Shown here: piece by piece, positions 8,628-50,170 of the stretch
Numbering within the stretch: the first letter of the stretch is position 1
Layout of the letters: each line of letters begins with the position of its first letter
NCBI GenBank assembly: GCA_028820635.1
Contig: JAPPIG010000042.1
Span: forward strand, 62,001 to 126,000
Direction: 5' to 3'
Source: Candidatus Poribacteria bacterium
GTDB lineage: Bacteria > Poribacteria > WGA-4E > WGA-3G
DNA: 64,000 nt
The notes under the pieces: model-generated
The model's input: only the letters and a program-made list of their open reading frames with translations
Told to the model about the DNA's origin: nothing
Databases searched by the model: none
Program-made: the position numbers and the translations under genes

Positions 8628-9659
8628 ATGAAACGCACCTATATGTTTTTTGGAATGACATTCCTGTTCAGTCTTTTTCTGCTTGCCGTAAACGCTTGGG
8701 GAGCTCCGTATATTTCTTTCAATTCTATCAAGATAGGGGAAGCTGGCATCCACACCGACATCGACATCATTGATACAAACGGGAAGAACCTACGCAACCT
8801 AACAAACCATCCCGCATTAGACTGTTGCGCAGCGTGGGCACCAGATGGACGTTCTTTTGCTTTTGTATCGCGCCGTGAAGGAAAATCCGAAATCTATATT
8901 AAGACATTCAATGTAGTTGAGGCACGTCGGTTGACAAATCATCCAGAGAGCAATGCTAATCCTGCCTGGTCACCTGATGGAAATTGGATCGCTTTTGTAT
9001 CCATAGGAAAAGAGGAACGTCATATTTACAAAATAGATATCAACGGCAATAATCTAAAGAGGCTTACTCACCATGGAAAATCCAACATTAACCCAGCCTG
9101 GTCTCCAGATGGGCAATCAATTGCTTTTGAATCAATAAGGAATGGTCGCGAGGGTATCTATGTGATTGACGCAGATGGAAAAAATCCCAGACAGATTATA
9201 AACCAGCAACATGGAGGCGGATTTCCTTCACAACCTACTTGGTCGCCTGATGGAAAACAGATTGCTTGTACTGTCGCTAAAGATGGGGTTGGTATCTACA
9301 TCATGGATACAGATGGACAAAACGCCCGCCGCATCACACCTCTTGGGACTTGGAGCGGCAATCCTGCGTGGTCACTTGATGGTAAGTGGATTGCCTACGA
9401 TGCCTTCGATGGAGGTGCGAATCCTTTCCAAAACCTGAATGCAGATGGAGGTGCGAATCCTTTCCAAAACCGGATTATTGGAGAGAGACACATTTTTATC
9501 GTTTCTGTCGAAGGGGGCGAGTCACGGCAAATCACACAAAATACTGGGCAACATTATTCTCCCGCATGGGTTCCCGAAAGTCCTTTTTCCGTTTCTCCGA
9601 CTGTGGACACCCAGACGACTCTCTGGGGTCGGTTGAAACAAGATGAACGTATTAGGTAA
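8628..9659 (+). CDS. Secreted PD40 beta-propeller protein (TolB-like)
   Basis: 343 residues with signal peptide MKRTYMFFGMTFLFSLFLLAV...WGA. The body is a string of PD40 (WD40-like) blades, each with the signature PAWSPDGxxIAF, giving about six blades as in the TolB propeller. AGGAGA precedes the ATG by about 6 nt. There is no TolB N-terminal domain, and the pal/tolQRA genes are not nearby, so this is not TolB itself. A short internal duplication occurs near residues 263-281 (GGANPFQNLNAD, then GGANPFQNRI). The C-terminus ends in the shared tail motif SVSPTVDTQTTLWGRLKQ. It is the diverged member of a three-gene paralogous set (with 9711 and 12380). Substrate or partner is unknown. Confidence 0.85.
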   Translation: MKRTYMFFGMTFLFSLFLLAVNAWGAPYISFNSIKIGEAGIHTDIDIIDTNGKNLRNLTNHPALDCCAAWAPDGRSFAFVSRREGKSEIYIKTFNVVEARRLTNHPESNANPAWSPDGNWIAFVSIGKEERHIYKIDINGNNLKRLTHHGKSNINPAWSPDGQSIAFESIRNGREGIYVIDADGKNPRQIINQQHGGGFPSQPTWSPDGKQIACTVAKDGVGIYIMDTDGQNARRITPLGTWSGNPAWSLDGKWIAYDAFDGGANPFQNLNADGGANPFQNRIIGERHIFIVSVEGGESRQITQNTGQHYSPAWVPESPFSVSPTVDTQTTLWGRLKQDERIR

Positions 9660-9710
9660 TGGGTGGCATCACTTCACTATTCTTGATAGTAATTTTCCAG
9701 GAGATAAAAA

Positions 9711-10694
9711 ATGAAACGCACCTATATGTTGTTTGGAATGACATTCCTGTTCAGTTTTTTTATGCTTACCGTAAACGCTTGGGGAGCTCCGTATATCTCC
9801 TTCTATTCTACCCATACAGGGCAAAGTGACATCTACATCATTGATACAAACGGCAAGAATCTACGTAACCTAACAAACCATCCCGCAGGAGACTATTGCA
9901 CAACGTGGGCACCAGATGGGCGTTCTTTTGCTTTTATGTCGGAGCGTGATGGAAATGGCGAAATCTATATTAAGAAATTTAATGAAGCTCAGGCGCGTCG
10001 GTTGACAAATCATCCAGAGTTAGATTATGGTCCTGCCTGGTCACCTGATGGAAATTGGATCGCTTTTATATCCAGGAGAACAGAGGGAGAACATATCTAC
10101 AAAATAGATATCAACGGCCAGAATCTACAGAGACTGACTAACGAGGGAGATAATTCCTCCCCAGCCTGGTCTCCAGATGGACAATCAATTGCTTTCAGTT
10201 CTCGTGGGAATGGTAGAAACGGTATCTATGTGATGGACGCAGATGGAAAAAATCCCAGACAGATTATAAACCCGTTCCAAGTAGGCGGATCTCCTTACTC
10301 GCCTACTTGGTCACCTGATGGAAAACAGATTGCTTATGTTAACGCTGATAGAGATGGGAGTGGTATCTACATCATGGATATAGATGAACAAAACGCCCGC
10401 CGCTTGTCACCTCTTGGAACTTGGAACTTCAATCCTGCGTGGTCCCCTGATGGTAAGTGGATTGCCTACCAAGCCTACGATGCAGATGCGAATCCTCTGG
10501 AAAACCTGAATGCTGTGCAACACATTTTTATCGTTTCTGTCGAGGGGGGCGAGCCACGGCAAATCACACAACATCCTGGGCAAAATGTTTGTCCCGCATG
10601 GGTCCCCGAAAGTCCTTTCTCCGTTTCTCCGACTGTGGACACCCAGACGACTCTCTGGGGTCGGTTGAAACAAGCTGAACATATCACGCAATAA
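9711..10694 (+). CDS. Secreted PD40 beta-propeller protein (TolB-like), duplicate A
   Basis: 327 residues with signal peptide and about six PAWSPDGxxIAF blades. It is nearly identical to the protein encoded at 12380; they differ only at the end (HPGQNVC versus HPGQSAC; WGRLKQAEHITQ versus WGWLKQAERMTQ). AGGAGATAAAAA precedes the ATG. The C-terminal tail carries the DTQTTLWGxLKQ motif shared with other secreted proteins of the window. It lies 51 nt after the paralogue at 8628 and could be cotranscribed with it. The propeller may bind peptides or polysaccharide; nothing in the sequence decides this. Confidence 0.85.
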   Translation: MKRTYMLFGMTFLFSFFMLTVNAWGAPYISFYSTHTGQSDIYIIDTNGKNLRNLTNHPAGDYCTTWAPDGRSFAFMSERDGNGEIYIKKFNEAQARRLTNHPELDYGPAWSPDGNWIAFISRRTEGEHIYKIDINGQNLQRLTNEGDNSSPAWSPDGQSIAFSSRGNGRNGIYVMDADGKNPRQIINPFQVGGSPYSPTWSPDGKQIAYVNADRDGSGIYIMDIDEQNARRLSPLGTWNFNPAWSPDGKWIAYQAYDADANPLENLNAVQHIFIVSVEGGEPRQITQHPGQNVCPAWVPESPFSVSPTVDTQTTLWGRLKQAEHITQ

Positions 10695-10781
10695 AGATAA
10701 TCACTTTTCACTATACAGAAAATACCATTTCTAAGTGATTATATTGCATTATTTCGTCCGTTGGGTTTCCCTTGCGACACC

Positions 10782-10808
10782 CGCCAAATGCCACACGCGC
10801 ATTTGGCG
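10782..10808. repeat. Hairpin in the duplicated 3' flank
   Basis: Perfect 10-bp arms CGCCAAATGC / GCATTTGGCG around a 7-nt loop. A second hairpin GGCACGC-tcc-GCGTGCC follows at 10829-10845. No T tract follows, so a terminator role is unproven. The first hairpin recurs at 13455-13481. Confidence 0.7.
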
Positions 10809-10913
10809 TTGATTTGAACATGGTAGCAGGCACGCTCCGCGTGCCGTTATGAGAAATATCAGTGTAATTATTGTCAATAAAAAAGTATTTGATATTTTAG
10901 GAGGTTGTATATA

Positions 10914-11600
10914 ATGTTCAGAAAATTGTGTATAATAGGATTGGCTTTTCTGATGAGTCTTACGGTGATGACGCTGACTGCTGATGCTCAACAAAAAATT
11001 CTTGGTCCGTATCTCTGGATGATTGCTAAAACTGTAGATGGACAAGGTGGTGCAAATTCTACCCATGTTGATTCACTTGATGAAGCGAGCAACGGCAAAG
11101 TCACCGAAGAGAAAATCGCCAAACACGGTGCAAGAGAAGGCGGCAAAGTTGGTAATTATGAGTGGACACATGGCACACTTGCCAATAACGGAGATATTAA
11201 TGCTCTCGTTAATAACATAGGTTTGGAGGATGGTGAGTTAGATCATATAACGTCTTATGCGCTAATTGTCCTCAAAACGAAAAGAGCGCAAGCAAACGTA
11301 GCGATGGGTGTCAGTAGTGATGACTCAGTTAAGGTTTGGGTTAATGGCGAAGTTGTTCATACCCATGCGGAGAACCGGAGTCGCGGCAAGGAAAACACCT
11401 TCCAAGATCATTTAAAGGTTGATCTAAAAAAAGGAAATAATTTGATCATGATAAAGGTCAGTGAACGTGGTGGTGGATGGGGTATGCACTTCGGCGTAGG
11501 CGGCGACTATGAATTAGCCGAAATTGATGCCATTTTCTTGCCAATTGAACCCGCTGGCAAATTAACAACGCAATGGGCACAAATCAAGAATATCCGGTAA
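10914..11600 (+). CDS. Secreted beta-sandwich (PA14-like) protein, unknown function
   Basis: 228 residues. The ATG at 10914 has AGGAGG 9 nt upstream; an in-frame TTG at 10905 overlaps the spacer and is less likely. Residues 1-24 are a signal peptide (MFRKLCIIGLAFLMSLTVMT...ADA). The middle contains VAMGVSSDDSVKVWVNGEVV and GNNLIMIKVSERGGGWGMHF, the pattern of PA14-like or carbohydrate-binding jelly rolls in which a bound or decorative sugar site faces solvent. It ends with LPIEPAGKLTTQWAQIKNIR, a variant of the C-terminal tail seen in the propeller and LamG proteins. It sits between the two copies of the duplicated propeller gene. The function is unknown; a surface carbohydrate-associated role is a guess. 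Confidence 0.7.
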   Translation: MFRKLCIIGLAFLMSLTVMTLTADAQQKILGPYLWMIAKTVDGQGGANSTHVDSLDEASNGKVTEEKIAKHGAREGGKVGNYEWTHGTLANNGDINALVNNIGLEDGELDHITSYALIVLKTKRAQANVAMGVSSDDSVKVWVNGEVVHTHAENRSRGKENTFQDHLKVDLKKGNNLIMIKVSERGGGWGMHFGVGGDYELAEIDAIFLPIEPAGKLTTQWAQIKNIR

Positions 11601-11865
11601 TTCTGACCTGATATCTCACAAAAAAGTGTTTTCAGTTTTCTCTTCATTCAATGAAAAATTCTGCAATGAAATTTTGTATAAACTCTGTAATTTGTATAAT
11701 ATTGTACTTCATGCCGTAATTGATTACCGAGTGAACCACTAAGTTTGGATGTGTAAATATTTTGGCATTAACTATGTCTTTTTCTTGTTGGAGGGCTCTG
11801 TAAGCCCGATAAATCCAATCGACGCAGCGTGCGCCAAATCAAGAAATCAACGCTACAAATATCAT

Positions 11866-12020
11866 TTCAACTTGTACAGTTTGAACCGGGTATTTGGTTT
11901 CCAAAAACCGTTACGTGGGAATCAAGTTATAATCCGGAAACAAAACAAGGGTTTAGAAAGGTACAAATGCAAGTGCATAAGGCTGTTTTTAACATTCCAA
12001 TTACAGCAAAGGATCGTTGA
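11866..12020 (+). pseudogene. Fragment of the C-terminus of an ECF-LolA-like gene
   Basis: About 50 codons ending at a TGA encode QFEPGIWFPKTVTWESSYNP and the following residues through ITAKDR, almost identical to the last 50 codons of the ECF fusion ending at 8379. The following non-coding DNA also matches 8380 onward. There is no sigma domain, signal or promoter. It is a remnant left by duplication. The upstream gap 11601-11865 shows nothing recognisable. Confidence 0.8.
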
Positions 12021-12038
12021 TAGACGACAATCAAGAAA

Positions 12039-12243
12039 TATAGAAAACCTATGAGTATTTATTCACTTACTGAAGCGTCAACTTTCAGTTTGTGCAGCTA
12101 CGGAAACACAAACTAACAATTTGTGCTACTGCACGAGCGGTAGGCGAGGCGGGGAATGCCTAAATGGTATTCATACCGTTGATTTTTTGATTTCTTCCTA
12201 ACCTCGCTGGAACAAGTGTATAAATAATTCTAAAATCTACCAG
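12039..12243 (+). repeat. Small inverted-repeat element (TATAG family)
   Basis: Left end TATAGAAAACCTATGAGTAT, right end AAGTGTATAAATAATTCTAA continuing AATCTAC. Internal sequence matches the 8398 and 41669 copies. The right end is the reverse complement type of the left end, with mismatches. It occupies most of the 358-bp gap before the propeller gene at 12380. Confidence 0.6.
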
Positions 12244-12350
12244 AAATACCGTTGTTAAAATCCATTGAATTTCCATTTACTTCTGATATAATAATCCAAC
12301 GTCTTGTCCCGCCACCCCAAACTTTATTATTTAGGCTTGGGTGTGCATAT

Positions 12351-13522
12351 CTTGATAGTAATTTTCCAGGAGATAAAAAATGAAACGCACCTATATGTTG
12401 TTTGGAATGACATTCCTGTTCAGTTTTTTTATGCTTACCGTAAACGCTTGGGGAGCTCCGTATATCTCCTTCTATTCTACCCATACAGGGCAAAGTGACA
12501 TCTACATCATTGATACAAACGGCAAGAATCTACGTAACCTAACAAACCATCCCGCAGGAGACTATTGCACAACGTGGGCACCAGATGGGCGTTCTTTTGC
12601 TTTTATGTCGGAGCGTGATGGAAATGGCGAAATCTATATTAAGAAATTTAATGAAGCTCAGGCGCGTCGGTTGACAAATCATCCAGAGTTAGATTATGGT
12701 CCTGCCTGGTCACCTGATGGAAATTGGATCGCTTTTATATCCAGGAGAACAGAGGGAGAACATATCTACAAAATAGATATCAACGGCCAGAATCTACAGA
12801 GACTGACTAACGAGGGAGATAATTCCTCCCCAGCCTGGTCTCCAGATGGACAATCAATTGCTTTCAGTTCTCGTGGGAATGGTAGAAACGGTATCTATGT
12901 GATGGACGCAGATGGAAAAAATCCCAGACAGATTATAAACCCGTTCCAAGTAGGCGGATCTCCTTACTCGCCTACTTGGTCACCTGATGGAAAACAGATT
13001 GCTTATGTTAACGCTGATAGAGATGGGAGTGGTATCTACATCATGGATATAGATGAACAAAACGCCCGCCGCTTGTCACCTCTTGGAACTTGGAACTTCA
13101 ATCCTGCGTGGTCCCCTGATGGTAAGTGGATTGCCTACCAAGCCTACGATGCAGATGCGAATCCTCTGGAAAACCTGAATGCTGTGCAACACATTTTTAT
13201 CGTTTCTGTTGAGGGGGGCGAGCCACGGCAAATCACACAACATCCTGGGCAAAGTGCTTGTCCCGCATGGGTCCCCGAAAGTCCTTTTTCCGTTTCTCCG
13301 ACTGTGGACACCCAGACGACCCTCTGGGGTTGGTTGAAACAAGCTGAACGTATGACGCAATAAAGATAATCACTTTTCACCATACATGCAGAAAACACCA
13401 TTTCTAAGTGATTATATTGCATTATTTCGTAAGTTGGGTTTCCCTTGCGACACCCGCCAAATGCCACACGCGCATTTGGCGTTGATTTGAACATGGTAGC
13501 AGGCACGCTCCGCTTGCCGCCC
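12351..13522 (+). repeat. Segmental duplication, copy 2
   Basis: Counterpart of 9682-10850. Its upstream flank (about 12285-12350) instead resembles 8540-8605, the flank of the first propeller gene, so this copy is a mosaic of two source regions. Confidence 0.85.
12380..13363 (+). CDS. Secreted PD40 beta-propeller protein (TolB-like), duplicate B
   Basis: 327 residues, nearly identical to the product of 9711: same signal peptide, same six PAWSPDG blades, with changes only in the last ~60 residues. Ends DTQTTLWGWLKQAERMTQ. AGGAGATAAAAA lies before the ATG. The near identity of coding and 3' flanking DNA indicates a recent duplication or ongoing gene conversion. Both copies are intact, so both are probably expressed. 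Confidence 0.85.
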   Translation: MKRTYMLFGMTFLFSFFMLTVNAWGAPYISFYSTHTGQSDIYIIDTNGKNLRNLTNHPAGDYCTTWAPDGRSFAFMSERDGNGEIYIKKFNEAQARRLTNHPELDYGPAWSPDGNWIAFISRRTEGEHIYKIDINGQNLQRLTNEGDNSSPAWSPDGQSIAFSSRGNGRNGIYVMDADGKNPRQIINPFQVGGSPYSPTWSPDGKQIAYVNADRDGSGIYIMDIDEQNARRLSPLGTWNFNPAWSPDGKWIAYQAYDADANPLENLNAVQHIFIVSVEGGEPRQITQHPGQSACPAWVPESPFSVSPTVDTQTTLWGWLKQAERMTQ

Positions 13523-13903
13523 GCACATTCAAGTTACTATGGCAATTTCTCAATTAGAATTGATATGTTATGATAATAGTGTTCTGTTGGTATCGGTTTC
13601 AACAATTAATGATTAGGAATTATGCTGAGGCGCGCCTATATTTTTAAGCAGATCATCCTTTGAGTAATCAAAATTCCTCCTCCATACTTGCTCACCCTAC
13701 GTCAATAACGTAAATACAGATTTGACAACAAAACCCTTAATCTGTTAAAATTGTAAACACCATAACAAAAATATCCGTTTAAGTTTGTGACTTTATCATT
13801 AATATTTGTATTAGCAATAATCCTCTCAGTATGAATCCATAGATACTGTTTGATAATACAACAGATCAACGCTGGAGTGGATGAGTTACTGTCAATATCC
13901 ACC
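13364..13903. other. 540-bp gene-free interval
   Basis: The first ~160 bp is the duplicated flank with the 10-bp-arm hairpin at 13455-13481. The rest is AT-rich and holds no supported gene. GGCGCGCC with a following T-rich run near 13631 looks like a remnant terminator but has no loop. A promoter for the operon starting at 13904 is expected here, but I cannot assign one. Confidence 0.5.
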
Positions 13904-16228: not shown

Positions 16229-16281
16229 GATTTGTTCTAAATTCAGTTGTTTCTGTAACACAATAATGGGTAGATTGATCT

Positions 16282-17388
16282 ATGAAAAAAGAGAAAAACA
16301 AAATTTCTCTTCTAATTTCTTTAGGGATACATTTCGTTTTGCTGTTAACTATATCACCGTTTTTGGTAACACATTTCAATGAAACAGATGATAAGATAAC
16401 ACTTACGTTTTTTAAGGCGAATACTCCGGAGCAGGTGGAACGGCGTATCATGCGTCAACACAAAGCAGTGCAGCCGGAACGGAGTATTGATAGTGGTTCT
16501 CCAGCCCTTTCGCGCGCAGCACCAAAGTATGACCCAGAGATGAACCCTCCCAAAGCACCGATTTTTGATGATGTCGCACCCGAAATAGTTACTTTCGCTG
16601 ATATACCACAGACGGATACTTCTTCACTACCAAACGCGAGTTTCGGAAAAGACGCTGAAGCAGCGGGACCTGTTGTCGTGCCAGAATATCGCGGGGCAGG
16701 TGGGAACGCCCGTGGTCCTGGACGGGGTGGATCAGGCACTGGGCTTGGCGGCGGCATGGGAAAAGGCTTGTCGCGTGTAACAGGTGTGGGTGACCTCGCT
16801 TCAATAGATTTGGATGAGGGCATCATGGGACTCGGTATCTTTGACTCTGATGTAATGCCTGGCCACGGATTAATTGGTCAAGTCTACATTCCCGGTGGTC
16901 CAATTCATAAAATGCCTGATTTTAAACGGATAACTCCCCTTTATACTTTTGCAGCAGCTAATTTGGATGTGCCTCCCAGACATTATACAGAGGGTTTTCC
17001 TACACCGCAGCAACAGACTGTAGTTGAGAATTTCGCAATACATTTCCGTGGAAAATTAGCAATTGATACACCTGGAACTTATATGTTTGAACTGCTTTCT
17101 GATGATGGGTCAAAATTATTTATAAATGGAAAATTGGTTGTAGATAACGACGGTGTTCACGGTACTCAAAGTAGAAACTCTCACATCACACTTACCACAG
17201 GATTTCATCCTGTTGAGATACACTATTTCCAAGGACCCCGATTTCAGATTGCTCTGCAATGGTTTTACAAACCACCAAACCGTTCGAAACGGATTGTCCC
17301 ACCCGAAGTCATCTTCCATCCCGGCAAACCGGACGTACCAGATGCGCTGAAAAAATTAAAACAACAGTTGAAGAAAATAGAAAAATGA
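16282..17388 (+). CDS. TonB-like N-terminal anchor fused to a PA14 domain
   Basis: 368 residues. Residues 9-31 form a transmembrane helix with an S13-x3-H17 motif (SLGIH), the arrangement TonB uses for coupling to ExbB/ExbD. A proline and glycine-rich periplasmic linker follows (~75-175, GAGGNARGPGRGGSGTGLGG). Instead of a TonB C-terminal domain, residues ~195-345 are a PA14 domain (FRGKLAIDTPGTYMFELLSD, DGSKLFINGKLVVDN, IHYFQG). The last ~20 residues are lysine-rich. The stop overlaps the next ATG by 4 nt (ATGA), so translation with the second Omp85-like gene is coupled. I infer an energised or inner-membrane-anchored partner of the flanking barrels; no exbBD is visible in the window. Confidence 0.7.
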   Translation: MKKEKNKISLLISLGIHFVLLLTISPFLVTHFNETDDKITLTFFKANTPEQVERRIMRQHKAVQPERSIDSGSPALSRAAPKYDPEMNPPKAPIFDDVAPEIVTFADIPQTDTSSLPNASFGKDAEAAGPVVVPEYRGAGGNARGPGRGGSGTGLGGGMGKGLSRVTGVGDLASIDLDEGIMGLGIFDSDVMPGHGLIGQVYIPGGPIHKMPDFKRITPLYTFAAANLDVPPRHYTEGFPTPQQQTVVENFAIHFRGKLAIDTPGTYMFELLSDDGSKLFINGKLVVDNDGVHGTQSRNSHITLTTGFHPVEIHYFQGPRFQIALQWFYKPPNRSKRIVPPEVIFHPGKPDVPDALKKLKQQLKKIEK

Positions 17389-19802: not shown

Positions 19803-19808
19803 AGAAAT

Positions 19809-20566: not shown

Positions 20567-21358
20567 TTATCGCTTCAACTCACCCCATTTAGTAGTCAGT
20601 TTCCCTTGTGCTTCGACTGACATTGAGTCACCTCTCCATAGTTCATAACTGTTTTCAGATTCATCTTTGAAACGGCCTAACCAAGGTGCTTCGTCAAAGT
20701 GCCATAATGAAATAGTATGTTCATCTACTCTGAATTTTCTTTCTGGAATTTTCCAATTCCTATCCGGATATCGGAGGATACTTGAAATTCGCACTTCATC
20801 AATAAAGCCTCTAAATTTCACATTTTCCCCAACAAAACGAGGCGGTTTCTGATCTTGCGGGACAACAATTCCACCAATACGTAGCGGTTTATCTGATTTA
20901 ACGAGATGCCCACCCGGACAGCACTTAATGCCGCCATTGCCGTTAATTCCCATGCCTGCTCTGGCATAGTACATCCCAACGACATGCACCCACTGCTTTA
21001 TGGGTAGTGGTTTTGTATGAATAGTTATTGAGATGTCTTGTGCTGCGTCATTGTGAGAGGCCCATGATCCTAAGACCCCCTTACTGCCAGCAATCACCAA
21101 ATTGAATCGTCCTTCCTGTCCAACAATTGACCAAAATTTTGATGGTCCTGGTGGTTCTTCAAAGTAGACCCAGGCTTCAACAGTCAACTGTTCAAACTGT
21201 TCATCAGGAAACCACGAATCGACGGTTCCAACATAATCATGTTTTTCATCCAGCCGCAACATCCTCCCATCTTGAGGTGATGGCGGTGGCACTGCTTGGG
21301 CACTTAGCAAAATACATATTAACAAAAGAAAACTTGGAATGAGTAATTGGTATACCAT
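20567..21358 (-). CDS. Secreted LamG (concanavalin-like) protein
   Basis: 263 residues: signal peptide MVYQLLIPSFLLLICILLSAQA, then a single LamG/concanavalin-A-like jelly roll (~30-240: LTVEAWVYFEE, FNLVIAG, WVHVVGMYY, FRGFIDEVRISSILRYPDRN, HTISLWHFDE). Such domains usually bind carbohydrate. The protein ends SVEAQGKLTTKWGELKR, the C-terminal tail shared with propeller proteins here. It is a tandem paralogue of the next minus-strand gene (21428) and converges with the DUF4159 gene, 26 nt apart. No catalytic module is attached. Confidence 0.85.
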   Translation of the reverse strand: MVYQLLIPSFLLLICILLSAQAVPPPSPQDGRMLRLDEKHDYVGTVDSWFPDEQFEQLTVEAWVYFEEPPGPSKFWSIVGQEGRFNLVIAGSKGVLGSWASHNDAAQDISITIHTKPLPIKQWVHVVGMYYARAGMGINGNGGIKCCPGGHLVKSDKPLRIGGIVVPQDQKPPRFVGENVKFRGFIDEVRISSILRYPDRNWKIPERKFRVDEHTISLWHFDEAPWLGRFKDESENSYELWRGDSMSVEAQGKLTTKWGELKR

Positions 21359-21427: not shown

Positions 21428-22213
21428 TTAGCGCTTAAGCTCTCCCCACAGAACGCTAAGTTTCTTCTGTGCAGAGATTGGCAACAGGTCACTTCTCCAG
21501 AGATCGTAGCCGTTTCCAGATTCATCTTTATAACGGCTGGAAAAAGGTTCTTCATCAAAACGCCATAGTGAAATAGTATGTTCATCTTCACTGAATTTTC
21601 TTTGGGGAATTTCCCAATTCCTATCTGGATATCGGAGGATATTTGAAATTCGCACTTCATCAATAAAGCCCTTAAATTTCACATTTTCTCCACCGAAATG
21701 ACGCCCTTCTTGATTTTTGGGAATGATACCGCCAATACGTAAGGGCTTATACGATTTGACGAAATGTCCTCCCGGACAACACCAAATGCCGCCTTTGCCG
21801 TTAATTCCCATGCCCGCTTTAGCATAGTACATCCCAACGACATGCACCCATTCCTCTGTAGGCAACGGTAAAGCTTTAACAGTCATTGAAGTGTTTTCTT
21901 CTGCGTCCTTATGAGCCGCCCAAGACCCTAAGGAACCCCCACCGGTCACAATCAAATTGAATCGTCCTTCCTGACCAATGACTGACCAAAATTTCGATGG
22001 TCCTGGAGGTTCTTCAAAGTAGACCCAGGCTTCAACAGTTAATTCCTCAAACTGTTCATCAGGAAACCATGCCTCACCCGTTCCAACATAATCGTGAGTT
22101 TTATCCAAGTGCAGCATTTTTCCTCCCGCGGGGGATGCTGGCGGTAGTGCTTGGGCACTCAACGAAATCAATGATAACAAAAGAGAACCTATGATGAGTT
22201 GACGGAATATCAT
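21428..22213 (-). CDS. Secreted LamG (concanavalin-like) protein, paralogue
   Basis: 261 residues from the ATG at 22213, which has AAAGGA about 7 nt upstream and begins the signal peptide MIFRQLIIGSLLLSLISLSAQA; an upstream in-frame start at 22234 is less likely. One LamG domain, closely similar to the 20567 product over its full length (DEQFEELTVEAWVYFEEPPG, WVHVVGMYYAKAGMGINGKG, GFIDEVRISNILRYPDRN). Ends SAQKKLSVLWGELKR. Tandem duplication is the likely origin. Possible role: surface carbohydrate binding. Confidence 0.85.
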   Translation of the reverse strand: MIFRQLIIGSLLLSLISLSAQALPPASPAGGKMLHLDKTHDYVGTGEAWFPDEQFEELTVEAWVYFEEPPGPSKFWSVIGQEGRFNLIVTGGGSLGSWAAHKDAEENTSMTVKALPLPTEEWVHVVGMYYAKAGMGINGKGGIWCCPGGHFVKSYKPLRIGGIIPKNQEGRHFGGENVKFKGFIDEVRISNILRYPDRNWEIPQRKFSEDEHTISLWRFDEEPFSSRYKDESGNGYDLWRSDLLPISAQKKLSVLWGELKR

Positions 22214-22243
22214 TTTTATGTCCTTTAGGAACAAATTTACACA

Positions 22244-32229: not shown

Positions 32230-32317
32230 ATGTTTTTCTATCTAAACGTAAACCTACTTTTTGCTTCTCCGTTACAATACTATCATATAGCAATAAACAT
32301 TGACGGAGCATATTCTT

Positions 32318-35300
32318 TTGAAGCCGAACCCCTCACATAGATATAGATTCTTGATTCTCCTTGCGTTCAGTTTTCTTGTTTTTGCACAACCTGCCTTAAC
32401 TGCGGAAAAAGACGAACCCACTCCACCTCCTCAAGAGGAAATTACCACCTCGACTCCAGTAGAGAATCCGTTTATCAAAAAGCCAAAAAAAGAAGAAAGT
32501 ACGTGGCTTCAGAGCGAATCAAAAACGAAAACAACAGACGACCCAACATCAACGGAAGATACAGATTCAGATATATCTTTGCGTCGTCAGATGCTGATGC
32601 CATATTTAGAAACACTACGTCGCTGGAAATATCCACCTGATCTTGGTGACCTTTCCGAACTTTACGATTGGAAACCGCGCCCCAAAACGGATACCAAAGG
32701 TATAGATCTTCCTATGGATTCAAATTTACAAGTAAAAATTGACCAGTCCGTGACAGTTGAGGTCAACAAAACACACTATTTTGGTGAAGGGGATTTGAAC
32801 CGTTACGGCGGTTATAGTTATGGAAGCTACGGGGACTACGGTTCAGGACTTGACCTTGGACTAACTTCTTCTTACGGTTATGAAGATTTCGGTTACAGCA
32901 GCGGGTTTGGCGGAGGATATGACAGTTTCGGTTCAAGTTATGGGAGTGGCTACAGTAGTTATGGTGGCTACAGCAGCTTTGGCAGAGGCGGCATTCCTCG
33001 TTCTACCGGTGTTAATATACGGCAAAGACAAATTATTGGATTACATGGTCGTGTCGGAGAACGAGTGCACATCGCGGTGGATTATAATGCAGGTGATACT
33101 TATGGCGGTGGGTATGGTGGTTATGGTAGCAGCTACGGGGGATATGGACTTGGAGGCTCTAAAGAACAGAAGATTAAAATTTGGTATGAAGGTAAACCTG
33201 AGAGTTTAATAAAAACCATCTCTTTTGGTGACATTACACTTAGTCTGCCGAACACTCGTTTCTTGAACATTAACCGTAATCTGTTTGGACTTGAAGGCGT
33301 GTTTGAATATAAAAACACCCGAATGACTCTTTTCGGTTCGCGAAGTAAGGGTGTTCGTGAAGTGCGAACGTTCCGTGGACAGTCTCGGAGAGCGAGTTTC
33401 GGTTACGGCCCGCGCGGTATTCAGATTGCGGATGCAAATTATGTCAAAAATAGGTACTACTTAATCCATCAAGGCGAGGATGGTTTGCTCCATGACGCAT
33501 ATCTGCCCATAAAACAGGGGAGTGTGGAAATCTATATAGATGATAGTGTCGTGGGCAATAACCAAGGAGGTCAACGGACGAGTCAAGGCTACTTCAATCA
33601 ACAGTTTCCCGGACAGGACTACAACATAAACTATGAAACTGGTGAAATTGAGTTCTTGTCTTCTATCTCCCCCAGTTACACTATTGTTGTCGCTTATGAA
33701 TATCTGGGAGACGGTGGTGGCAGCGTTGGAAATCCTGGGAATGCCTTTGCTGACGAAAACGGGGATGGAATTATTGATGAAGAGGGCGAAGAGGTTGGCT
33801 ATGTTGTGTTGAAAGAGAAAGGAATTCGTGGATCAGTGGCAGATAACGTCTACTTTCTTAGCAACCGAAACATCAATCCTCGTGATTTTCATTTGACAAT
33901 TATCCGACAGGGAGAAAGTGAAACATTCCAAACTGATGCAGGACTTGTGCCATACATAGAAATATTTGGATTAGATCAGAACGGAGACGGCATTGTAGAT
34001 CCTGAGTTCATAGACTACGACAGAGGATTACTGCGTTTTCCAAATTTACATCCCTTTCAAATCAGCGATCCGCAACATCCCTACTATCGTTACAGAGATT
34101 CTTTGAATAACGAAGCGATTTATCTCGAATCCCTCCGTAGCACTGACCAGGTTTATACAATTGTTGCTGACTATTCTTATCAATCTGAAACCTATAATGT
34201 TGGTCTATTTGTGATTCCAAATAGCGAAACTGTCCGATTAAACGGGAGAGTCCTCACACGCGATACGGACTATATGATGGTTTATGAAGTCGGGTCAATT
34301 CGGTTTTTTACAGAACTTGATGAATTTGATGAAATCGTCGTGGAATTTGAAAAGACACCTTTCGGCGGTTCACAGCAAGCAGTTGTTGGTGTATGGTTAG
34401 AATATACACATAAACCGAAACCGAAATCAGCGCGAGAGCAGAATCTTGAAGATAGGTTCAATCGTCTGGGTGGCATGCAAATGACACAAACAGGTTTGGA
34501 CAGTAATCTTATGAATGATCCATTTTCAGGTGGGTTTCCTCGGAGCAACACGTTTTCTGGTGGGGGATTTAATAATACCGGCTTTGGTCGTAGTGGTTTT
34601 GGTGGGGGTGGATACAGTAGTTTTGGTAGTTTTGGAGGTCGTTCGAGAATTGGACCGAGTTACTTAGGCGGTTACGGAACAGGCATGAATTATTTTAATC
34701 CTGTTTTCCAAAAAGGTTTTAATGTATCAACAGGCTATATCTTAACAACCGGACAGAAACCGGCTCTCATACCAGATGTCAACGAAGTCCCCAACCGTTT
34801 GCAAGCATTTAATATCAACACCAGTTTTGGCAGAGAGTTCAACCTGGCGTGGTTGTTAAACCCGTTGCCTTTTGTTAATGTCCAAAATTTTCCACTCTCA
34901 ATTGATTTTAGTGGGGAGTCGGCTTACTCACATAATAATCCCAATAGTGTTGGAGTCGCCCTTATTGATAGTATGGAAGGTGTAAAAGAAACCACCACTA
35001 TCCCAACGATCAAATACAGCTGGAAACCGAGTAGTGTGCCATACATCCCGGAATCGACTCAAACAGGTACACCGATACACAATTATACCGTGTTACCCAC
35101 ACAGGAAAATAGAGCACTTTTTAATGTCGTTTTGAAAGATAGGGAAGAAGCGGAGGCAGTTGGCAACTATATGCGCAACCAAGATGTACCTGCCTCGTCA
35201 ATTCAGCCGCTCTCTCTTTCTACGGAAGAACGGTTGATTATGGAAATTGGATACGATTTTACGGATGTCGTTGAAGAATGGGGTGGTTTCTCAAACGGCA

Positions 35301-38300
35301 TTTCAAAATCTGGCGTTGATTACTCAGAGCGTGGGTTTGTTGAAATGTGGTTACGCGTGCAAGGTGACGACGATATAACGCTCTATCTTAATCTTGGTGC
35401 TGTGGATGAAGATGCGGATGCTGATGGTCGCCTTGACAGTGAAGACCTTCCACAAACATTAGAGGATACCAACGGAGACGGTATTGTTGACGCGCTTGAT
35501 CTTGACCTTGAAAATCTACCAGATGTGCATCGATACCGTGGGAACGGAGCACTTGATACAGGTGAAGACGTTGGTTGGAGTTTTGATGGACCATTTGCAC
35601 CAAAGTCTTTTGGGGCAAATAATCAAATTTTGGATAGCGAGGATTTAAATGGAGACGGCGTGCTCGATAGCGTTGATGCATATTTTCAAATTGCTATCCC
35701 ACTTAATGAGATTCCAAACGAATGGGTTAAAGGAAAAAATAAGAACGGGTGGACGTTCCTTAGTATCCCCCTCTCTAAATTCTTACCGGAGGGCTCTCGC
35801 CTCCCCAGTCTCGTATTCGTTCAGCACTTCCGTTTTTGGCTCATGAAAAACCGGCCCGGCAACGTTACGGGAAAATTTCAATGGGCATCTATTGAAATCG
35901 TTGGGAATAAGTGGGAACAGGGTGTAGTCACAAAATCTTTTGCAGAGACAAGCGCCGGACTTTCCGACCGTCAAGTTGTTGAAGATACACTCGAAAAGTT
36001 CATCGTTGGCACAAAAGATAACTTTAGTTTTGACGACTATCAGAGTGCATATATTGAAATTGAAGATGACGAACTTTTTAGAAAACTGCACCCGTTTACG
36101 GCTACCTCGCTCGGTTTTCAAACACAGCAACAACGCGAACAAACACTTAGCCTCGAATATTATCTCTACCCTGATTCCTACGGTATTACCTCCAAGCAAC
36201 TAAGGGGTTTTAGCCAGAGCGAAGGACAAGATTTTAGTAGGCACGATACACTCCGATTATGGTTATACGGTGATAAAAGCTACACTACCTTTGTCTTGCA
36301 ACTTGCACCCAGTGTGCGCACAGGTTACCGGAGTTCATTCTACAGTTCCGATCCATTTCTTAACCGACCACAAGAAGAGGATGTGAATATATTTGAGAAT
36401 CTAACGGACTATTATGAATATACCGTACCGATTGACTTTGAAGGATGGAAACTGATTGAGATTGACTTGCGAGACCACGTTAGGAACGAGTATCCAGATC
36501 GTGTTGCAGATCAGAATGTAGATACAGAAACATCAAATCAGGAACTACAACCATCTCCCAACGAAAATGCACCTGACGGACATCCAGACGGTTTTAGTGT
36601 TAGAGGTTCAGAAACAGGGGTAAGTAGAACACAACTGTCCATTAAAAATATTGGAGGTATACTGCTCGGTATCCGAAACGACACGGACAGAGAAATTAGT
36701 GGTGAGGTATGGGTAAATGAGATACATCTGGGTGATCCGCTTGTCCGTTCTGGATGGGCACGACGCGGTAATATGTCTGTTTCGCTTGGTAGTATTATTA
36801 GTCTCCGTGGTGGCTATGCCAGCCAAGACAAAGATTTTGAGAGCGGGGCTGGTGAAATCGGACGGCAACGTTTATCATCCCGTGGCTATAGTACTACAAA
36901 TAACGACTACAATATTGATGCGGATGTCACGATTTTTTCATGGCTTCCAATACGCTATTCTATCCGAGAACAGGAATCTGAAACTGAGGCACTGCGAGGA
37001 AGTTACAGCTCATTTGTTAGTGGAAAGAGTGAAACTTTAAACCGAGATGTTTCGGTGCAATTCAACCGCAATCCCTATCCCAACCTTGGATTTTCTTACA
37101 ATTATCAGGACTTTTGGAATGAACGGCAAGGCACACAAATTAGCCACCTATACACAGGTACTTTTCGCTATAATCTCGGTTCAAAACTTGGGTTCAACTT
37201 ACAGTATCGGCATGAGGATATTCTTGCTAAACCTGAAACTGCAACAGATACGACTACAACATCAACCTCCTATTACGGCTATCGTCGGAATCGGGATGAG
37301 AAAACAGATAGCGGCTCCATAACGCTTAACATTAGTCCGATAACTGTCTTCAGTCTCAGTCCGAGTTATGATGTGCGGCGAACACTTGAGAAACGTGATC
37401 CGAATCGTTATAGAACATCGTTTTTCGCGGGAGGTGTAACGAACATGACTTCTTCTGTGGAAGAGGATACCAATGAAGAAATTCAGCCAGATTTTACAAT
37501 TGCTGAACGTGAACACCGACTTTCACTCACACCACGTCTCAATCGTGATCTGATTGGATTGCGTCCCACAGTCACAAGTCGTGTAAGTTTCAGAGAAAAC
37601 TGGTTTAATGTAAAGAAAGACGCTTCACTCATCGGAAACATTAATCTTGGTTTGAGTTTTCGTATTCAAAAATGGTTCGGGTGGCTGTTTAATAAGGAAA
37701 AACCGGAAACTGAAGCCATAGAAGAGAATCAGGACGGAATGATTGAGAAGTCAGATCACCAAACCCCGATTGAACAGCGGGTTGAAAAGTTACGTGATAA
37801 TGGCGTTGATGAAACGCAAATCCAAAAAATAGTTGAAGATCAAAATGACTGGATTAACCGTGATAAAGCGGAAATGGAACAAAAACAACGTTCCGGTCCA
37901 GTAACAACAGGTTCTCTTGGCACGCAACAACCTAAACCGGAAGGTTTTTTACTGCGAATAATCAATACATTTACAATAAACACTAATGCAACCTTTACTG
38001 CTTCTGAATCCTTTCGCCAACTTGAGTCTAATCAGTCTCTGATAGAAATCTGGGAACTTGATAGAGAAGCAGAGGAACGTACTAATTCGCGTAACAGTAA
38101 TCGCTACACACTCCGTACTTCTGTGGATCCGTGGAAATGGCTCTCCTTCGGAACAAATCTCAGTACATCTGATAGTTTTCGGAAAAGTTACAGCAGCACA
38201 TTTATATCACACGCAGAAACCTACGAAGGAGATGTTAAGCTGAATGCACAACAAGCTACAAGTTTTCAACTTCGGTATAGTTATACGATACGGAAAAGTG

Positions 38301-38773
38301 ATAACCTTGAAGTCACACTTAGTGACAGCGCTGCACACACCCCATCGCTGAGTTGGCTGCACAAATGGAGTGAAGAAACAAGGACTTCATTAGGTATTCG
38401 CACGACTCTTCGCGACCATCTACGAAGTGGAATTGAAAGCAAAGCTTTCATCGTCACACCTAATTTTAGTATTGACTACCGTTACCGGACCGAAGGCGGC
38501 ATACGCTTGCCATTGATCGGCAAAATACAACTTAAGCACGACATTGATCTGACAAATACATTTTCTTTGGCGATTCGCAGAGAGAACTACGGTGCTAATA
38601 AAGAGGAGCGGTCTGAACGTTATGAGACAACGTTACGAGCAGGCTACAGACTCAGCGACCATCTAACAGCAAATTTACATTTGGGACTTAGCTACAACCA
38701 CGATAGGGTTGAAGAGGGAAGGGACTACCTCTCTGTTGCAAGTGCACTTACAGTGAGAGGTCAATTTGAATAA
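32318..38773 (+). CDS. SprA-like giant outer-membrane protein (type IX-type translocon family)
   Basis: About 2151 residues. I prefer the TTG at 32318 because GGAG lies 10 nt upstream; an in-frame TTG at 32300 has no ribosome site. A signal peptide follows (FLILLAFSFLVFAQPALTA). Motifs of the SprA/Sov family occur near the N-terminus: IIGLHGRVGERVHIAVDYNA, KIKIWYEGKPESLIKTISFG, LSLPNTRFLNINRNLFGLEG and YEIDYETGEIEFL-like INYETGEIEFLSS. A Gly/Tyr/Ser-rich stretch (~170-290) and calcium-loop-like DxNGDGxxD motifs are inserted. The C-terminal ~600 residues are amphipathic strands ending SALTVRGQF. SprA is the 36-strand export pore of the type IX secretion system in Bacteroidetes. No other T9SS gene is in the window. 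Confidence 0.8.
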   Translation: MKPNPSHRYRFLILLAFSFLVFAQPALTAEKDEPTPPPQEEITTSTPVENPFIKKPKKEESTWLQSESKTKTTDDPTSTEDTDSDISLRRQMLMPYLETLRRWKYPPDLGDLSELYDWKPRPKTDTKGIDLPMDSNLQVKIDQSVTVEVNKTHYFGEGDLNRYGGYSYGSYGDYGSGLDLGLTSSYGYEDFGYSSGFGGGYDSFGSSYGSGYSSYGGYSSFGRGGIPRSTGVNIRQRQIIGLHGRVGERVHIAVDYNAGDTYGGGYGGYGSSYGGYGLGGSKEQKIKIWYEGKPESLIKTISFGDITLSLPNTRFLNINRNLFGLEGVFEYKNTRMTLFGSRSKGVREVRTFRGQSRRASFGYGPRGIQIADANYVKNRYYLIHQGEDGLLHDAYLPIKQGSVEIYIDDSVVGNNQGGQRTSQGYFNQQFPGQDYNINYETGEIEFLSSISPSYTIVVAYEYLGDGGGSVGNPGNAFADENGDGIIDEEGEEVGYVVLKEKGIRGSVADNVYFLSNRNINPRDFHLTIIRQGESETFQTDAGLVPYIEIFGLDQNGDGIVDPEFIDYDRGLLRFPNLHPFQISDPQHPYYRYRDSLNNEAIYLESLRSTDQVYTIVADYSYQSETYNVGLFVIPNSETVRLNGRVLTRDTDYMMVYEVGSIRFFTELDEFDEIVVEFEKTPFGGSQQAVVGVWLEYTHKPKPKSAREQNLEDRFNRLGGMQMTQTGLDSNLMNDPFSGGFPRSNTFSGGGFNNTGFGRSGFGGGGYSSFGSFGGRSRIGPSYLGGYGTGMNYFNPVFQKGFNVSTGYILTTGQKPALIPDVNEVPNRLQAFNINTSFGREFNLAWLLNPLPFVNVQNFPLSIDFSGESAYSHNNPNSVGVALIDSMEGVKETTTIPTIKYSWKPSSVPYIPESTQTGTPIHNYTVLPTQENRALFNVVLKDREEAEAVGNYMRNQDVPASSIQPLSLSTEERLIMEIGYDFTDVVEEWGGFSNGISKSGVDYSERGFVEMWLRVQGDDDITLYLNLGAVDEDADADGRLDSEDLPQTLEDTNGDGIVDALDLDLENLPDVHRYRGNGALDTGEDVGWSFDGPFAPKSFGANNQILDSEDLNGDGVLDSVDAYFQIAIPLNEIPNEWVKGKNKNGWTFLSIPLSKFLPEGSRLPSLVFVQHFRFWLMKNRPGNVTGKFQWASIEIVGNKWEQGVVTKSFAETSAGLSDRQVVEDTLEKFIVGTKDNFSFDDYQSAYIEIEDDELFRKLHPFTATSLGFQTQQQREQTLSLEYYLYPDSYGITSKQLRGFSQSEGQDFSRHDTLRLWLYGDKSYTTFVLQLAPSVRTGYRSSFYSSDPFLNRPQEEDVNIFENLTDYYEYTVPIDFEGWKLIEIDLRDHVRNEYPDRVADQNVDTETSNQELQPSPNENAPDGHPDGFSVRGSETGVSRTQLSIKNIGGILLGIRNDTDREISGEVWVNEIHLGDPLVRSGWARRGNMSVSLGSIISLRGGYASQDKDFESGAGEIGRQRLSSRGYSTTNNDYNIDADVTIFSWLPIRYSIREQESETEALRGSYSSFVSGKSETLNRDVSVQFNRNPYPNLGFSYNYQDFWNERQGTQISHLYTGTFRYNLGSKLGFNLQYRHEDILAKPETATDTTTTSTSYYGYRRNRDEKTDSGSITLNISPITVFSLSPSYDVRRTLEKRDPNRYRTSFFAGGVTNMTSSVEEDTNEEIQPDFTIAEREHRLSLTPRLNRDLIGLRPTVTSRVSFRENWFNVKKDASLIGNINLGLSFRIQKWFGWLFNKEKPETEAIEENQDGMIEKSDHQTPIEQRVEKLRDNGVDETQIQKIVEDQNDWINRDKAEMEQKQRSGPVTTGSLGTQQPKPEGFLLRIINTFTINTNATFTASESFRQLESNQSLIEIWELDREAEERTNSRNSNRYTLRTSVDPWKWLSFGTNLSTSDSFRKSYSSTFISHAETYEGDVKLNAQQATSFQLRYSYTIRKSDNLEVTLSDSAAHTPSLSWLHKWSEETRTSLGIRTTLRDHLRSGIESKAFIVTPNFSIDYRYRTEGGIRLPLIGKIQLKHDIDLTNTFSLAIRRENYGANKEERSERYETTLRAGYRLSDHLTANLHLGLSYNHDRVEEGRDYLSVASALTVRGQFE

Positions 38774-39366: not shown

Positions 39367-40452
39367 TCAACGTTGATTCTGCAGATAAAATAACACGTTT
39401 TGCGATAACGACCTGAACGTTTCACTACGACTCTGAAGAAACCTTTTTAGTTTTCCCCACTGCGTTTGCATCTTACCTTTAGGGGAAACAGGCAGCACAT
39501 CATCGCTGATCCAATCCAACGCTCCATCCTTGCCCGGATGGTCTGTTAGCTGCGTAATCTCGGTTGTCGGGATATGATACTTATAGATATTTCTCGGTGG
39601 ATACTGACCGGGACGTGGCAGCAGTTCGTCTAAAGGTATCCCGACATACGCACTGAAAACAACCGATTTTCCATCATCCATCCAGTCAATTTGTGATGGG
39701 AACCAGTCTTTCGGTATCTGGAGTTGTTTGATGTTTTTTCCGTTGCGATCACAAATCAGATACCGATGTGCCTTGTAGATAATCGCAAGCGCGAATCCGC
39801 CTCGTGGTTCCCACACATACTGGTCATGGAGAAAGACAATCTGTTTGCCATCGGGCGACCAGCGCGGGGCTTTGAAGCGTCCCTGTGCGGGCGAAGGCAG
39901 TAGTTTTCGTGGTCTATTACCATCGGCTCCCATTATCCAAAGCGCGCCACCTACTTCACCGACCACCCCCGACTCTGAGAACACAATAGACTTGCCATCA
40001 GGCGACCAATCACAAAAGATTGCACTCACATCTGCTATCTCTTTTACCGCCCCCGTTTCTATATTCAGCACGTTGACGGTCTTTATCTCTTTGCCATCTA
40101 TTGTCACTCTCATGTTAAAAACAAGAGATTTGCCATCCGGGGAAAATGACGTTCTACCGATATATGCTTTATCGGGGAATATGAGTTTCCAGATGTTTGT
40201 GCCATCTGGATCCATCAAGTATTCACCAGCGCGTGACCTAAACATTATCTGTTTACCGTCTGGTGACCAGCAACGTGGAGTAGGTCTTAACTTTTCATCT
40301 TCAATGAGAAGCGTCTGGTTGCTGCCATCATCGTCCATCACGTAGACACCTTCCACACCGTCGCGTATGGAACTAAAAACGATTTTCGCATCTGCTACCA
40401 CACCGAATAGCAGGAGCAGCAAACAAAGCAAACTAACTTTTTGTAGGTACAT
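39367..40452 (-). CDS. Secreted PD40 beta-propeller protein (TolB-like)
   Basis: 361 residues. Signal peptide MYLQKVSLLCLLLLLFGVVADA. Blades with the signature xWSPDGKQIxF occur about six times (RCWSPDGKQIMFRS, TSFSPDGKSLVFN, CDWSPDGKSIVFS, PRWSPDGKQIVFL). AAGGAG lies 8 nt upstream of the ATG. The tail motif LPVSPKGKMQTQWGKLKR occurs near the end, followed by 24 extra residues, unlike the other carriers where it is nearly terminal. It is only distantly related to the 8628/9711/12380 set. No catalytic domain; ligand unknown. Confidence 0.8.
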   Translation of the reverse strand: MYLQKVSLLCLLLLLFGVVADAKIVFSSIRDGVEGVYVMDDDGSNQTLLIEDEKLRPTPRCWSPDGKQIMFRSRAGEYLMDPDGTNIWKLIFPDKAYIGRTSFSPDGKSLVFNMRVTIDGKEIKTVNVLNIETGAVKEIADVSAIFCDWSPDGKSIVFSESGVVGEVGGALWIMGADGNRPRKLLPSPAQGRFKAPRWSPDGKQIVFLHDQYVWEPRGGFALAIIYKAHRYLICDRNGKNIKQLQIPKDWFPSQIDWMDDGKSVVFSAYVGIPLDELLPRPGQYPPRNIYKYHIPTTEITQLTDHPGKDGALDWISDDVLPVSPKGKMQTQWGKLKRFLQSRSETFRSLSQNVLFYLQNQR

Positions 40453-42104: not shown

Positions 42105-42206
42105 ATAATGTTTTTTAATTATACCTTGTTTCTATTGAAAAATCAAGTATTTATATTTCTCTGGTAGAGCCATTCAGTTTTCAAATTTTCTGAACATTTT
42201 GGACAT

Positions 42207-42241: not shown

Positions 42242-42322
42242 TCTTAGATAGAAGGTGGAAATTATTGGAGAATTGAATGGCTCTGATTTCTCTGGAGGGT
42301 TGGAATTCTTATGTGGTAATCA

Positions 42323-43933: not shown

Positions 43934-44054
43934 CAGTCAGTTCTCCTTTTCATGTTGTGAATTCTTTGGGCTATTCTCTTTCTTTACACTTTTGTGCTTG
44001 TACTTAAATTTACTGAGCAAGCAGTACCATCAATTTGACAATTATACAAGTTCC

Positions 44055-46480: not shown

Positions 46481-46531
46481 GAGAAGACCTCTAAATCAAC
46501 ATGTTGACTATTTCAGAAGAAAACTATCAAG

Positions 46532-48970: not shown

Positions 48971-49124
48971 TGGTCTAACCTTCTTTCTCTTGCTATGATG
49001 GTCTAAATAAAAGTTATCTCATAAGTGAAGCTGCGAGGCTTACAAACCCTGCTTCAATATATCAGGAGTTCTGTCAAATAAATATGAGATAGAATTAAGA
49101 ATAGAAAGGAAAATATAAAGATCC

Positions 49125-49146
49125 TGCGGCTTCAGAAGTGCCGCAT
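49125..49146 (-). terminator. Possible terminator after the propeller gene
   Basis: TGCGGC / GCCGCA stem just beyond the stop at 49154, followed on the minus strand by a T-rich but interrupted tract. Weak. Confidence 0.4.
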
Positions 49147-49153
49147 AAATATG

Positions 49154-50170
49154 TTATCTCAAAGTACGTTTGACATCCCCCCAAGTTGTAGTTAATTTCT
49201 GTTTGGGTTCAACAGGAAGCACTTCATGTTTCCACCAGGAAATTGCAAAAATGCTTCCTTCCACTTCAAATAATTGTTCTGTTTTTCCGGTAAGAAGATC
49301 GTGCAAATAGAACGCTCCCCACCGAGAGAAGATAATCGATTGACCATCAAATGACCAATCTGTCCACATGCCGGTCTGCTTATCAACATCAAAGAGGGGT
49401 TTTATGGCTCGCGTTTCAACATCAATTGTAGACATTGTGTCAAATTCTCTGTTCCATCTACGGAACAAAATTTTCGTGCCATCAGGCGACCAAACAGGGT
49501 ACAAATCAATATTTAATTCAGTTAATATTTCTATCTCTTTTGTTTCAAGGTCTAACAGGTAGAGTTGATCTAATCCACCGGGTCTTTCAAGTGAAAACGC
49601 AAGTTGTCTACTGTTCGGTGCCCAAGAGATTCCCCAGAAAAAGAAGGACCTACCAATGTGTGGTATCGCGGTCACTGCTTCCATTTCACCTGTTTCAATA
49701 TCAAGTACCCAAACCTGATTTTCTTGTTGTTGCTGTTCGCGCGTCCATCCGTTAAAAGCAAGTTTCTTTCCATTCGGTGAAACAGCTAAAAATCTATAAG
49801 TGCCGCTAATCTCTGTAAGTAGTGTTTTATTTTTAGGGTTGTTAATATCAATTGAAAAGATATGTGATTGTGTGTCGGCACGTTGAATAAAATAGAGCGT
49901 GTCGCCTTCTGGTCCCCATGCAGGATACATTCCAGATTGATTCAAAGGCGTTGTCTTGAAGTCCCCATTTTCGGTGAAGGTCGTCATGTGGAGATTGAAA
50001 TCTAATCTTCCAAGTTTGTTGTTAAACCCAGAAACAGCATAAGCAATACGTCCCGTGGGTGCTGCATCTACTGTGATAGGCAAACAGAGAAAGACTAAAA
50101 TTAGTCCAAAACTTATCCGTTTTCCTATTTCAATAGTCCTAACAAGCAAATGACGTTTTCTATCTTTCAT
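49154..50170 (-). CDS. Secreted PD40 beta-propeller protein (TolB-like)
   Basis: 338 residues from the ATG at 50170, with GAGGA about 7 nt upstream. It starts 1 nt after the stop of the TPR gene, so the two are an operon. A signal anchor (ISFGLILVFLCLPITVDA) is preceded by a long basic n-region. About six blades follow (YPAWGPEGDTLYFI, LAVSPNGKKLAFN, ISWAPNSRQLAFS, YPVWSPDGTKILFRR, TDWSFDGQSIIFS). The C-terminus is LPVEPKQKLTTTWGDVKRTL plus R, the shared tail motif. Distant paralogue of the other propellers. Function unknown. Confidence 0.8.
   Translation of the reverse strand: MKDRKRHLLVRTIEIGKRISFGLILVFLCLPITVDAAPTGRIAYAVSGFNNKLGRLDFNLHMTTFTENGDFKTTPLNQSGMYPAWGPEGDTLYFIQRADTQSHIFSIDINNPKNKTLLTEISGTYRFLAVSPNGKKLAFNGWTREQQQQENQVWVLDIETGEMEAVTAIPHIGRSFFFWGISWAPNSRQLAFSLERPGGLDQLYLLDLETKEIEILTELNIDLYPVWSPDGTKILFRRWNREFDTMSTIDVETRAIKPLFDVDKQTGMWTDWSFDGQSIIFSRWGAFYLHDLLTGKTEQLFEVEGSIFAISWWKHEVLPVEPKQKLTTTWGDVKRTLR

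Follow-up and report, generated by a model that had tools for sequence, protein, structure and literature searches.

Short C-terminal signals shared by unrelated secreted proteins are familiar from the LPXTG and PEP-CTERM systems, whose tails comprise a transmembrane helix and a basic end. Here we describe a tail of comparable placement, with the consensus LPVSPxxKLTTxWGxLKR (drawn from seven distinct versions), on eight proteins encoded in a 64,000-nucleotide stretch of a Candidatus Poribacteria genome (assembly GCA_028820635.1, contig JAPPIG010000042.1, positions 62,001 to 126,000), hereafter called the window. Reading of the tail sequences revealed no hydrophobic stretch, which excludes a membrane-anchored tag of the LPXTG or PEP-CTERM class.

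The type IX secretion system (T9SS) provides a second comparison. Its type A C-terminal domain (CTD; TIGR04183, PF18962) is, like the tail, a C-terminal signal found on Sec-exported proteins of many folds; it is, however, a folded domain whose model spans about 70-80 positions, compared to 15-25 residues predicted to be disordered for the tail. No match to TIGR04183 or PF18962 fell on the tail in the seven of the eight window carriers that were scanned, nor was any seen for 150 carriers among the families listed for them (25 of 43). The available text of a T9SS review names CTD types A, B and C, of which B and C resemble the tail in being alternative C-terminal signals for one translocon, but are regions of about 100 residues (PMC10202324); the type B signal has its own shuttles, according to the portion of a second article at hand (PMC12618676). 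TIGR04131, the type B model, was not among the families listed for tailed proteins (25 of 43). The same portions of these sources report that a 22-residue C-terminal stretch of one type-A CTD is enough to export green fluorescent protein in Flavobacterium johnsoniae (PMC10202324), and suggest that CTDs of this species hold separable secretion and targeting signals (PMC12618676). In Poribacteria, the accessible part of Kamke et al. 2014 (PMC3909097) describes T9SS sorting domains, finds no Por structural genes and leaves the pathway open. The core peptides of the tail (KLTTTWG, TTTWGKLK, TTTWGELK, LTTTWGNLK and KLATTWG) were not found in literature text, in a search that did not cover most subscription papers and preprints, and the accessible parts of the Poribacteria literature on type IX secretion, sorting signals or secreted proteins yielded no description of the tail.

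The tail in one Poribacteria genome

A profile built from the window's own tails was run over the 5.97 Mb genome and scored 150 of 259 candidates. Eight of the 150 matches are the window's own tails and are not independent, since the first profile was built from them. A DNA pattern for TxWGx[hydrophobic]K gave 107 matches over the whole genome, about nine of which are expected from the reversed control pattern (9 matches). We retrieved all 150 profile places and a further 22 found by the pattern only, among the 100 of 107 pattern matches listed. Combining the profile places with the genuine pattern-only places gives about 160 tails in this genome, with the consensus VEPxGKLTTTWGxLK followed by a few residues; these counts are lower bounds.

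The tail is short, basic and located at the extreme C-terminus. Of the 150 profile matches, 140 end 0-15 residues before the stop codon, five overrun it by 1-2 residues and two finish 17 and 21 residues short of it, so that 147/150 are within 21 residues of a stop. One match lies 44 residues before the stop, and two are inside longer proteins, directly before a T9SS-type domain. For 17 of the 22 pattern-only places, too, a stop follows within 15 residues; five look spurious, including one of these 17, and one precedes a damaged CTD. A signal-peptide-like N-terminus was called in 141 of the 150 profile matches by a crude test of hydrophobicity alone, and several of the nine carriers that failed it are short or broken frames. 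The background rate, by a similar, slightly stricter test, was 194 of 721 open reading frames (ORFs) in 69 named loci. Within these 721 ORFs the strict tail occurred in 22 and the strict motif internally in none; among ORFs that pass the crude signal-peptide test it was present in 15 of 194, vs. 7 of 527 among the rest. Three of these seven are cut by the end of the locus, and the other four are LamG orthologues that score 1.5-1.9 where the threshold is 2.2. The initial annotation asked whether matches are nearly always C-terminal and restricted to signal-peptide proteins, and named equal occurrence inside proteins or in cytoplasmic proteins as grounds for refutation; the profile matches did not refute it on either count.

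Among 164 distinct cores, the columns read V 140, P/A 112/34, K 149, L 117 and T 135, and later G/A 123/39 and L/I 99/46; because the table is anchored on W..K, present in 170 of 172 places, the columns for W and the last K are constant by design. Across 32 aligned LamG carriers, paralogues at 25-34% identity among them, W and K are invariant. Synonymous codons vary at the fixed tail residues, showing that selection acts at the protein level. It should be noted that two tailed proteins of this genome (at C49:337088 and C125:80275) have equal length, start and end, pointing to a recent copy or assembly redundancy. In four loci with large carriers (L061, L135, L172 and L174), the tail comes after a shared L[KR]GL[IV]SA segment that closes a longer C-terminal region.

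In the window itself, direct reading reproduced the C-termini of all eight proteins as first quoted. A 15-column matrix trained on 140 tails, all from outside the window, placed exactly these eight at the top of the 40 window ORFs, with scores of 43.1 to 10.4, compared to -2.1 for the ninth ORF. The eighth score was equalled or beaten by 3 of 12,000 shuffled ORFs. The shuffled maximum of 15.6 makes the three propeller tails at 8628-13363 (16.1, 16.1 and 10.4) the least secure of the eight when each is judged individually. On the plus strand, the tail closes the PD40 protein 8628-9659 (VSPTVDTQTTLWGRLKQDERIR, 9591..9656), the PD40-type protein 9711-10694 (10623..10691), the protein 10905-11600 (IEPAGKLTTQWAQIKNIR, 11544..11597) and the PD40 protein 12380-13363 (13292..13360), a near-copy of 9711-10694. 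On the minus strand, it closes the LamG proteins 20567-21358 (VEAQGKLTTKWGELKR, 20570..20617) and 21428-22234 (ISAQKKLSVLWGELKR, 21431..21478) and the PD40 protein 49154-50236 (VEPKQKLTTTWGDVKRTLR, 49157..49213); in the PD40 protein 39367-40452 the element (39445-39489) is followed by 25 further residues (together 39370..39489). Sequence reading, profile and matrix identify all eight, joined by the domain scan for all except 9711-10694 and by a structure model for 49154-50236.

Five of the eight carriers are PD40 propellers, two are LamG paralogues and one, 10905-11600, matches RhaB_D2 weakly (23.5 bits, cut-off 27); 9711-10694 lay outside the domain scan and its PD40-type call comes from its near-identity to 12380-13363. 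The PD40 and LamG assignments of the initial annotation stand, but its PA14-like carrier is the weak RhaB_D2 match, and the PA14 protein of the window (16282-17388) has no tail. Since several carriers are paralogues, 8628-9659 being a close paralogue of the near-identical pair 9711-10694 and 12380-13363, the eight tails represent fewer than eight independent cases. The two genes of this pair are 2.7 kb apart and apparently reflect a recent duplication. A similarity search of the window sequence against plasmids gave nothing useful.

Carrier folds, predicted structure and distribution

For a broader view of the carriers, 150 of the 154 complete ones were aligned and scanned for domains. Among the families listed (25 of 113), LamG was found in 73, PD40 in 25, WD40 in 11, the 3-keto-disaccharide hydrolase family in 7, and NPCBM and CBM9 in 3 each. 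This spread bears out the proposal that one tail is shared by unrelated folds, and excludes the tail as part of a single fold. No Pfam or NCBIfam model listed for the carriers represents the tail, and the propeller match of 12380-13363 overlaps it by a few residues.

Two AlphaFold2 models, one for a LamG carrier (locus L216, mean predicted local distance difference test score, pLDDT, 68.4) and one for the propeller at 49157-50170 of the window (mean pLDDT 78.8), both consist of a folded domain and a low-confidence tail. The pLDDT was 35-38 over tail residues 232-252 of the LamG carrier and 41-43 over residues 320-338 of the propeller, comparable to the signal peptide. The tails are thus predicted to be disordered beside two unrelated folds, and their placement outside the folded domain in both models excludes a tail that lies within it. 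Rather than being homologous over one longer C-terminal domain of a single fold, the alternative raised in the initial annotation, the carriers belong to many families, with the tail outside the fold.

Tails were found in 84/84 Poribacteria genomes, with 31 to at least 106 per genome. Unlike the type A CTD, the tail was not found outside the phylum in 155 genomes, bar one case at chance level (two matches, best E-value 0.006). A role for the tail as a sorting-type signal is well supported by where it lies, by the proteins that carry it, by its predicted disorder, by the constraint on its residues and by its use throughout the phylum. The original suggestion of a sorting, anchoring or processing signal likewise appears sound, given the C-terminal position, the signal-peptide carriers and the many folds.

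The element before type-A domains and the T9SS machinery

A close version of the element is found directly before a type-A (FlgD-like) CTD in some larger proteins. The two internal profile matches of the genome both adjoin a type-A/FlgD-like sorting domain, and we take one of the two proteins to be of the ASPIC/UnbV type. The element was kept before the CTD in 30/30 ASPIC/UnbV orthologues retrieved, all from the window's own family, with the last K replaced by R in three. A profile of the element plus the CTD start matched 84/84 genomes, where many matches may owe their score to the CTD half only. Outside the family of these orthologues, 40 further loci were hand-picked for spread from the matches listed for this element-containing profile, and for that reason show spacing and spread, not frequency. 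The element precedes the CTD in all 40, a set spanning several families and orders of Poribacteria, and ends 9 residues before NPFNP (NPSNP in L379). With the stand-alone matrix, its W column masked, 40 of the 43 CTD upstreams in these loci scored 6.4-38.9, compared to a background maximum of 2.3; the remaining three upstreams belong to additional CTDs of these loci and lack the element. The V, E, P, G, K, T, G, I/V and K positions stay conserved before CTDs in the loci read. A TIGR04183 match (30.8 bits, cut-off 23) starts at the P of YPNPFN, right after the element, and at least 19 of 27 scanned pre-CTD proteins match beta-propeller families.

The commonest stand-alone end, three residues past the last K (74/170), coincides with the position where a CTD would begin, and therefore resembles the end left by CTD removal. 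Read-through or frameshift into a CTD is excluded, as no CTD was found within 240 nt after the stop codon of 154 carriers (one chance QNYP apart). Among 17 distinct ASPIC-type ends in the loci at hand, 14 are element + CTD orthologues and three have neither; none has a stand-alone tail. Searched against plasmids, the element plus CTD aligned to eight records, none covering the whole element: five of the eight alignments begin at query residue 24 or beyond, and the others at 13, 14 and 20.

The window also encodes a SprA/Sov-like outer-membrane translocon candidate of 2157 amino acids (32300..38773, plus strand), a candidate partner that matches TIGR04189 with 143.7 bits (curated cut-off 200). 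SprA-like proteins occur in 83/84 Poribacteria genomes (E<=0.001), and 69/69 named loci found with a SprA-like alignment are from Poribacteria. Peptidase_C25, the PorU family, was found over the Pfam cut-off in 30/30 relatives, with 1-5 matches each (mostly 2-3) in frames of about 1,700-2,250 residues. Only one His and one Cys, presumably the catalytic pair, are invariant among the His and Cys residues of eight C25 domains from three genomes. PorV (PF19572) was likewise present in 30/30 relatives, 28 of them over the cut-off. In loci L341 and L344, the PorU-like gene adjoins a gene matching PorV_fam (102 and 98 bits, cut-off 90); one such PorU-adjacent gene, scanned against Pfam, matched UPF0164 and not PF19572. 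In L346, a PorV beside a PorU-like gene was labelled by eye. GldM (TIGR03517) was over the cut-off in 0/30 relatives, with one weak match of 16.7 bits; it was the only motor or ring part looked for.

Several neighbouring features are recorded here as observations. At 13850-20540 of the window, a PA14 protein lies between two Omp85-domain proteins, both matching DUF4252 (above the cut-off in one case and below it in the other), and a DUF4159 protein comes after them; in L346, a DUF4159-like gene resembling it is found behind the PorU-PorV pair (by eye). A PorU-like C25 gene of the window's own genome (L340:1745-8542, contig C63) is a few genes away from two short genes of 95-98 amino acids that resemble EutN/CcmL microcompartment vertex proteins (label by eye). 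A far more canonical SprA, with 508 bits and its neighbours in frame, is present in L182 (contig C30 of genome G006, a metagenome-assembled genome 64% complete), representing contamination or a second T9SS. Lastly, the window ORFs 2585-4708 and 6556-8379 share near-identical N-terminal extracytoplasmic function (ECF) sigma factor domains and differ in their C-terminal parts; one of them has CarboxypepD_reg and C-type lectin matches.

Possible roles of the tail

We propose, with a probability of roughly one half, that the tail is a phylum-specific sorting or attachment signal, recognized by a divergent T9SS through its PorU/PorV branch. We infer the T9SS route from the element before type-A CTDs and from the presence of the machinery. 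Tailed proteins would be exported to the periplasm by Sec; the 15-residue element V-E-P-x-G-K-L-T-T-T-W-G-x-L-K would then be read by the PorU/PorV (sortase/shuttle) branch, and the proteins placed on, or attached to, the outer surface. The element might act as a complete short signal or as a docking or cleavage segment.

A number of observations weigh against this proposal. SprA was found in 63 of the same 155 genomes outside Poribacteria (39 over the SprA cut-off), and 0/63 have the tail. This excludes the tail as a general T9SS signal and means that it is not predicted by SprA alone; co-occurrence within the phylum is uninformative, as both are near-universal there. The suggestion of SprA as the exporter holds only in part: it gains from the type-A CTD link and from the presence of SprA-, PorU- and PorV-type genes, and loses from this lack of prediction. 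In addition, SprA is under the curated cut-off in 83/84 Poribacteria genomes (above it in 1/84), and the three PorU-like proteins of the window's own genome reach 349, 389 and 416 bits to NF033707, where the cut-off is 420. The LamG model is of modest confidence, and the propeller model draws the tail as a low-confidence helix. The stand-alone carriers have no CTD, either attached or just past the stop, and the 40 CTD loci were selected with a profile that includes the element. In an unselected census of the same genome, the element was found in only 3/47 NPFNPET CTDs (L288; C117:19137 in L091; C125:125690 in L358). Finally, the residue at the W position varies with context, being W in stand-alone tails and L in 30, F in 6 and W in 3 of 39 pre-CTD elements.

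Since the element is absent from 44/47 CTDs, it is seemingly not needed for type-A export, which suggests, for type-A CTD proteins, a role in attachment or targeting in preference to translocation. The match between stand-alone ends and the end left by CTD removal is compatible with two models, the short T9SS signal read by PorU/PorV and an anchor at the mature C-terminus. The second, which we consider possible but doubtful, would make the element an anchor or retention tag only, binding a phylum-specific receptor such as a surface glycan or a protein of the outer membrane or periplasm. The CTD of large proteins would direct export and be cut off, exposing the element; in small proteins the element would already be exposed, and these would use another route or be retained in the periplasm. 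Such an anchor would account for the most frequent position of the stop codon, at which removal of a CTD would leave the same end exposed, for the many CTDs of the genome without the element and for the absence of the tail from SprA-bearing genomes outside the phylum. It would, however, require a further receptor and another export route for the small carriers, and the fixed spacing to the CTD suggests that element and CTD are read jointly.

It is unlikely that the tail serves another secretion or processing system unrelated to the T9SS, with CTDs fused onto already tailed proteins. The change from W in stand-alone tails to mostly L or F before CTDs looks as if constraint had shifted after such a fusion, and outside the phylum the presence of SprA is no predictor of the tail; yet the remaining positions and the 9-residue spacing are conserved before CTDs in several families and orders. 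A structural cap, or a chaperone-binding or proteolysis-protecting tail with no sorting role, is very improbable: a short, basic, extreme C-terminal segment could serve in this way, but the same sequence is found on unrelated folds, lies outside the folded domain in two models and is strongly enriched on signal-peptide proteins. A non-functional remnant of lost T9SS CTDs, which the similar segment before some CTDs might bring to mind, is close to refuted by tails in 84/84 genomes, residues kept despite free codon variation and no CTD just downstream of 154 carriers.

Within the proposed PorU/PorV-read signal, we would suggest only tentatively that a C-terminal peptide of 15-20 residues with no folded domain is a complete T9SS export-and-attachment signal, used by some 160 mostly small proteins in a setting where the search returned no GldM over the cut-off. 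If it is true that so short a tail suffices for the T9SS, the signal would be much smaller than the CTDs of types A, B and C. The SprA-like, PorU-type and PorV-type genes bear on the pathway question left open in the available part of Kamke et al. 2014 (PMC3909097). Globally, the tail offers a one-line criterion for recognizing part of the proteins secreted or displayed at the surface by an uncultivated phylum of sponge symbionts, whose LamG, propeller and carbohydrate-binding carriers may meet the sponge host.

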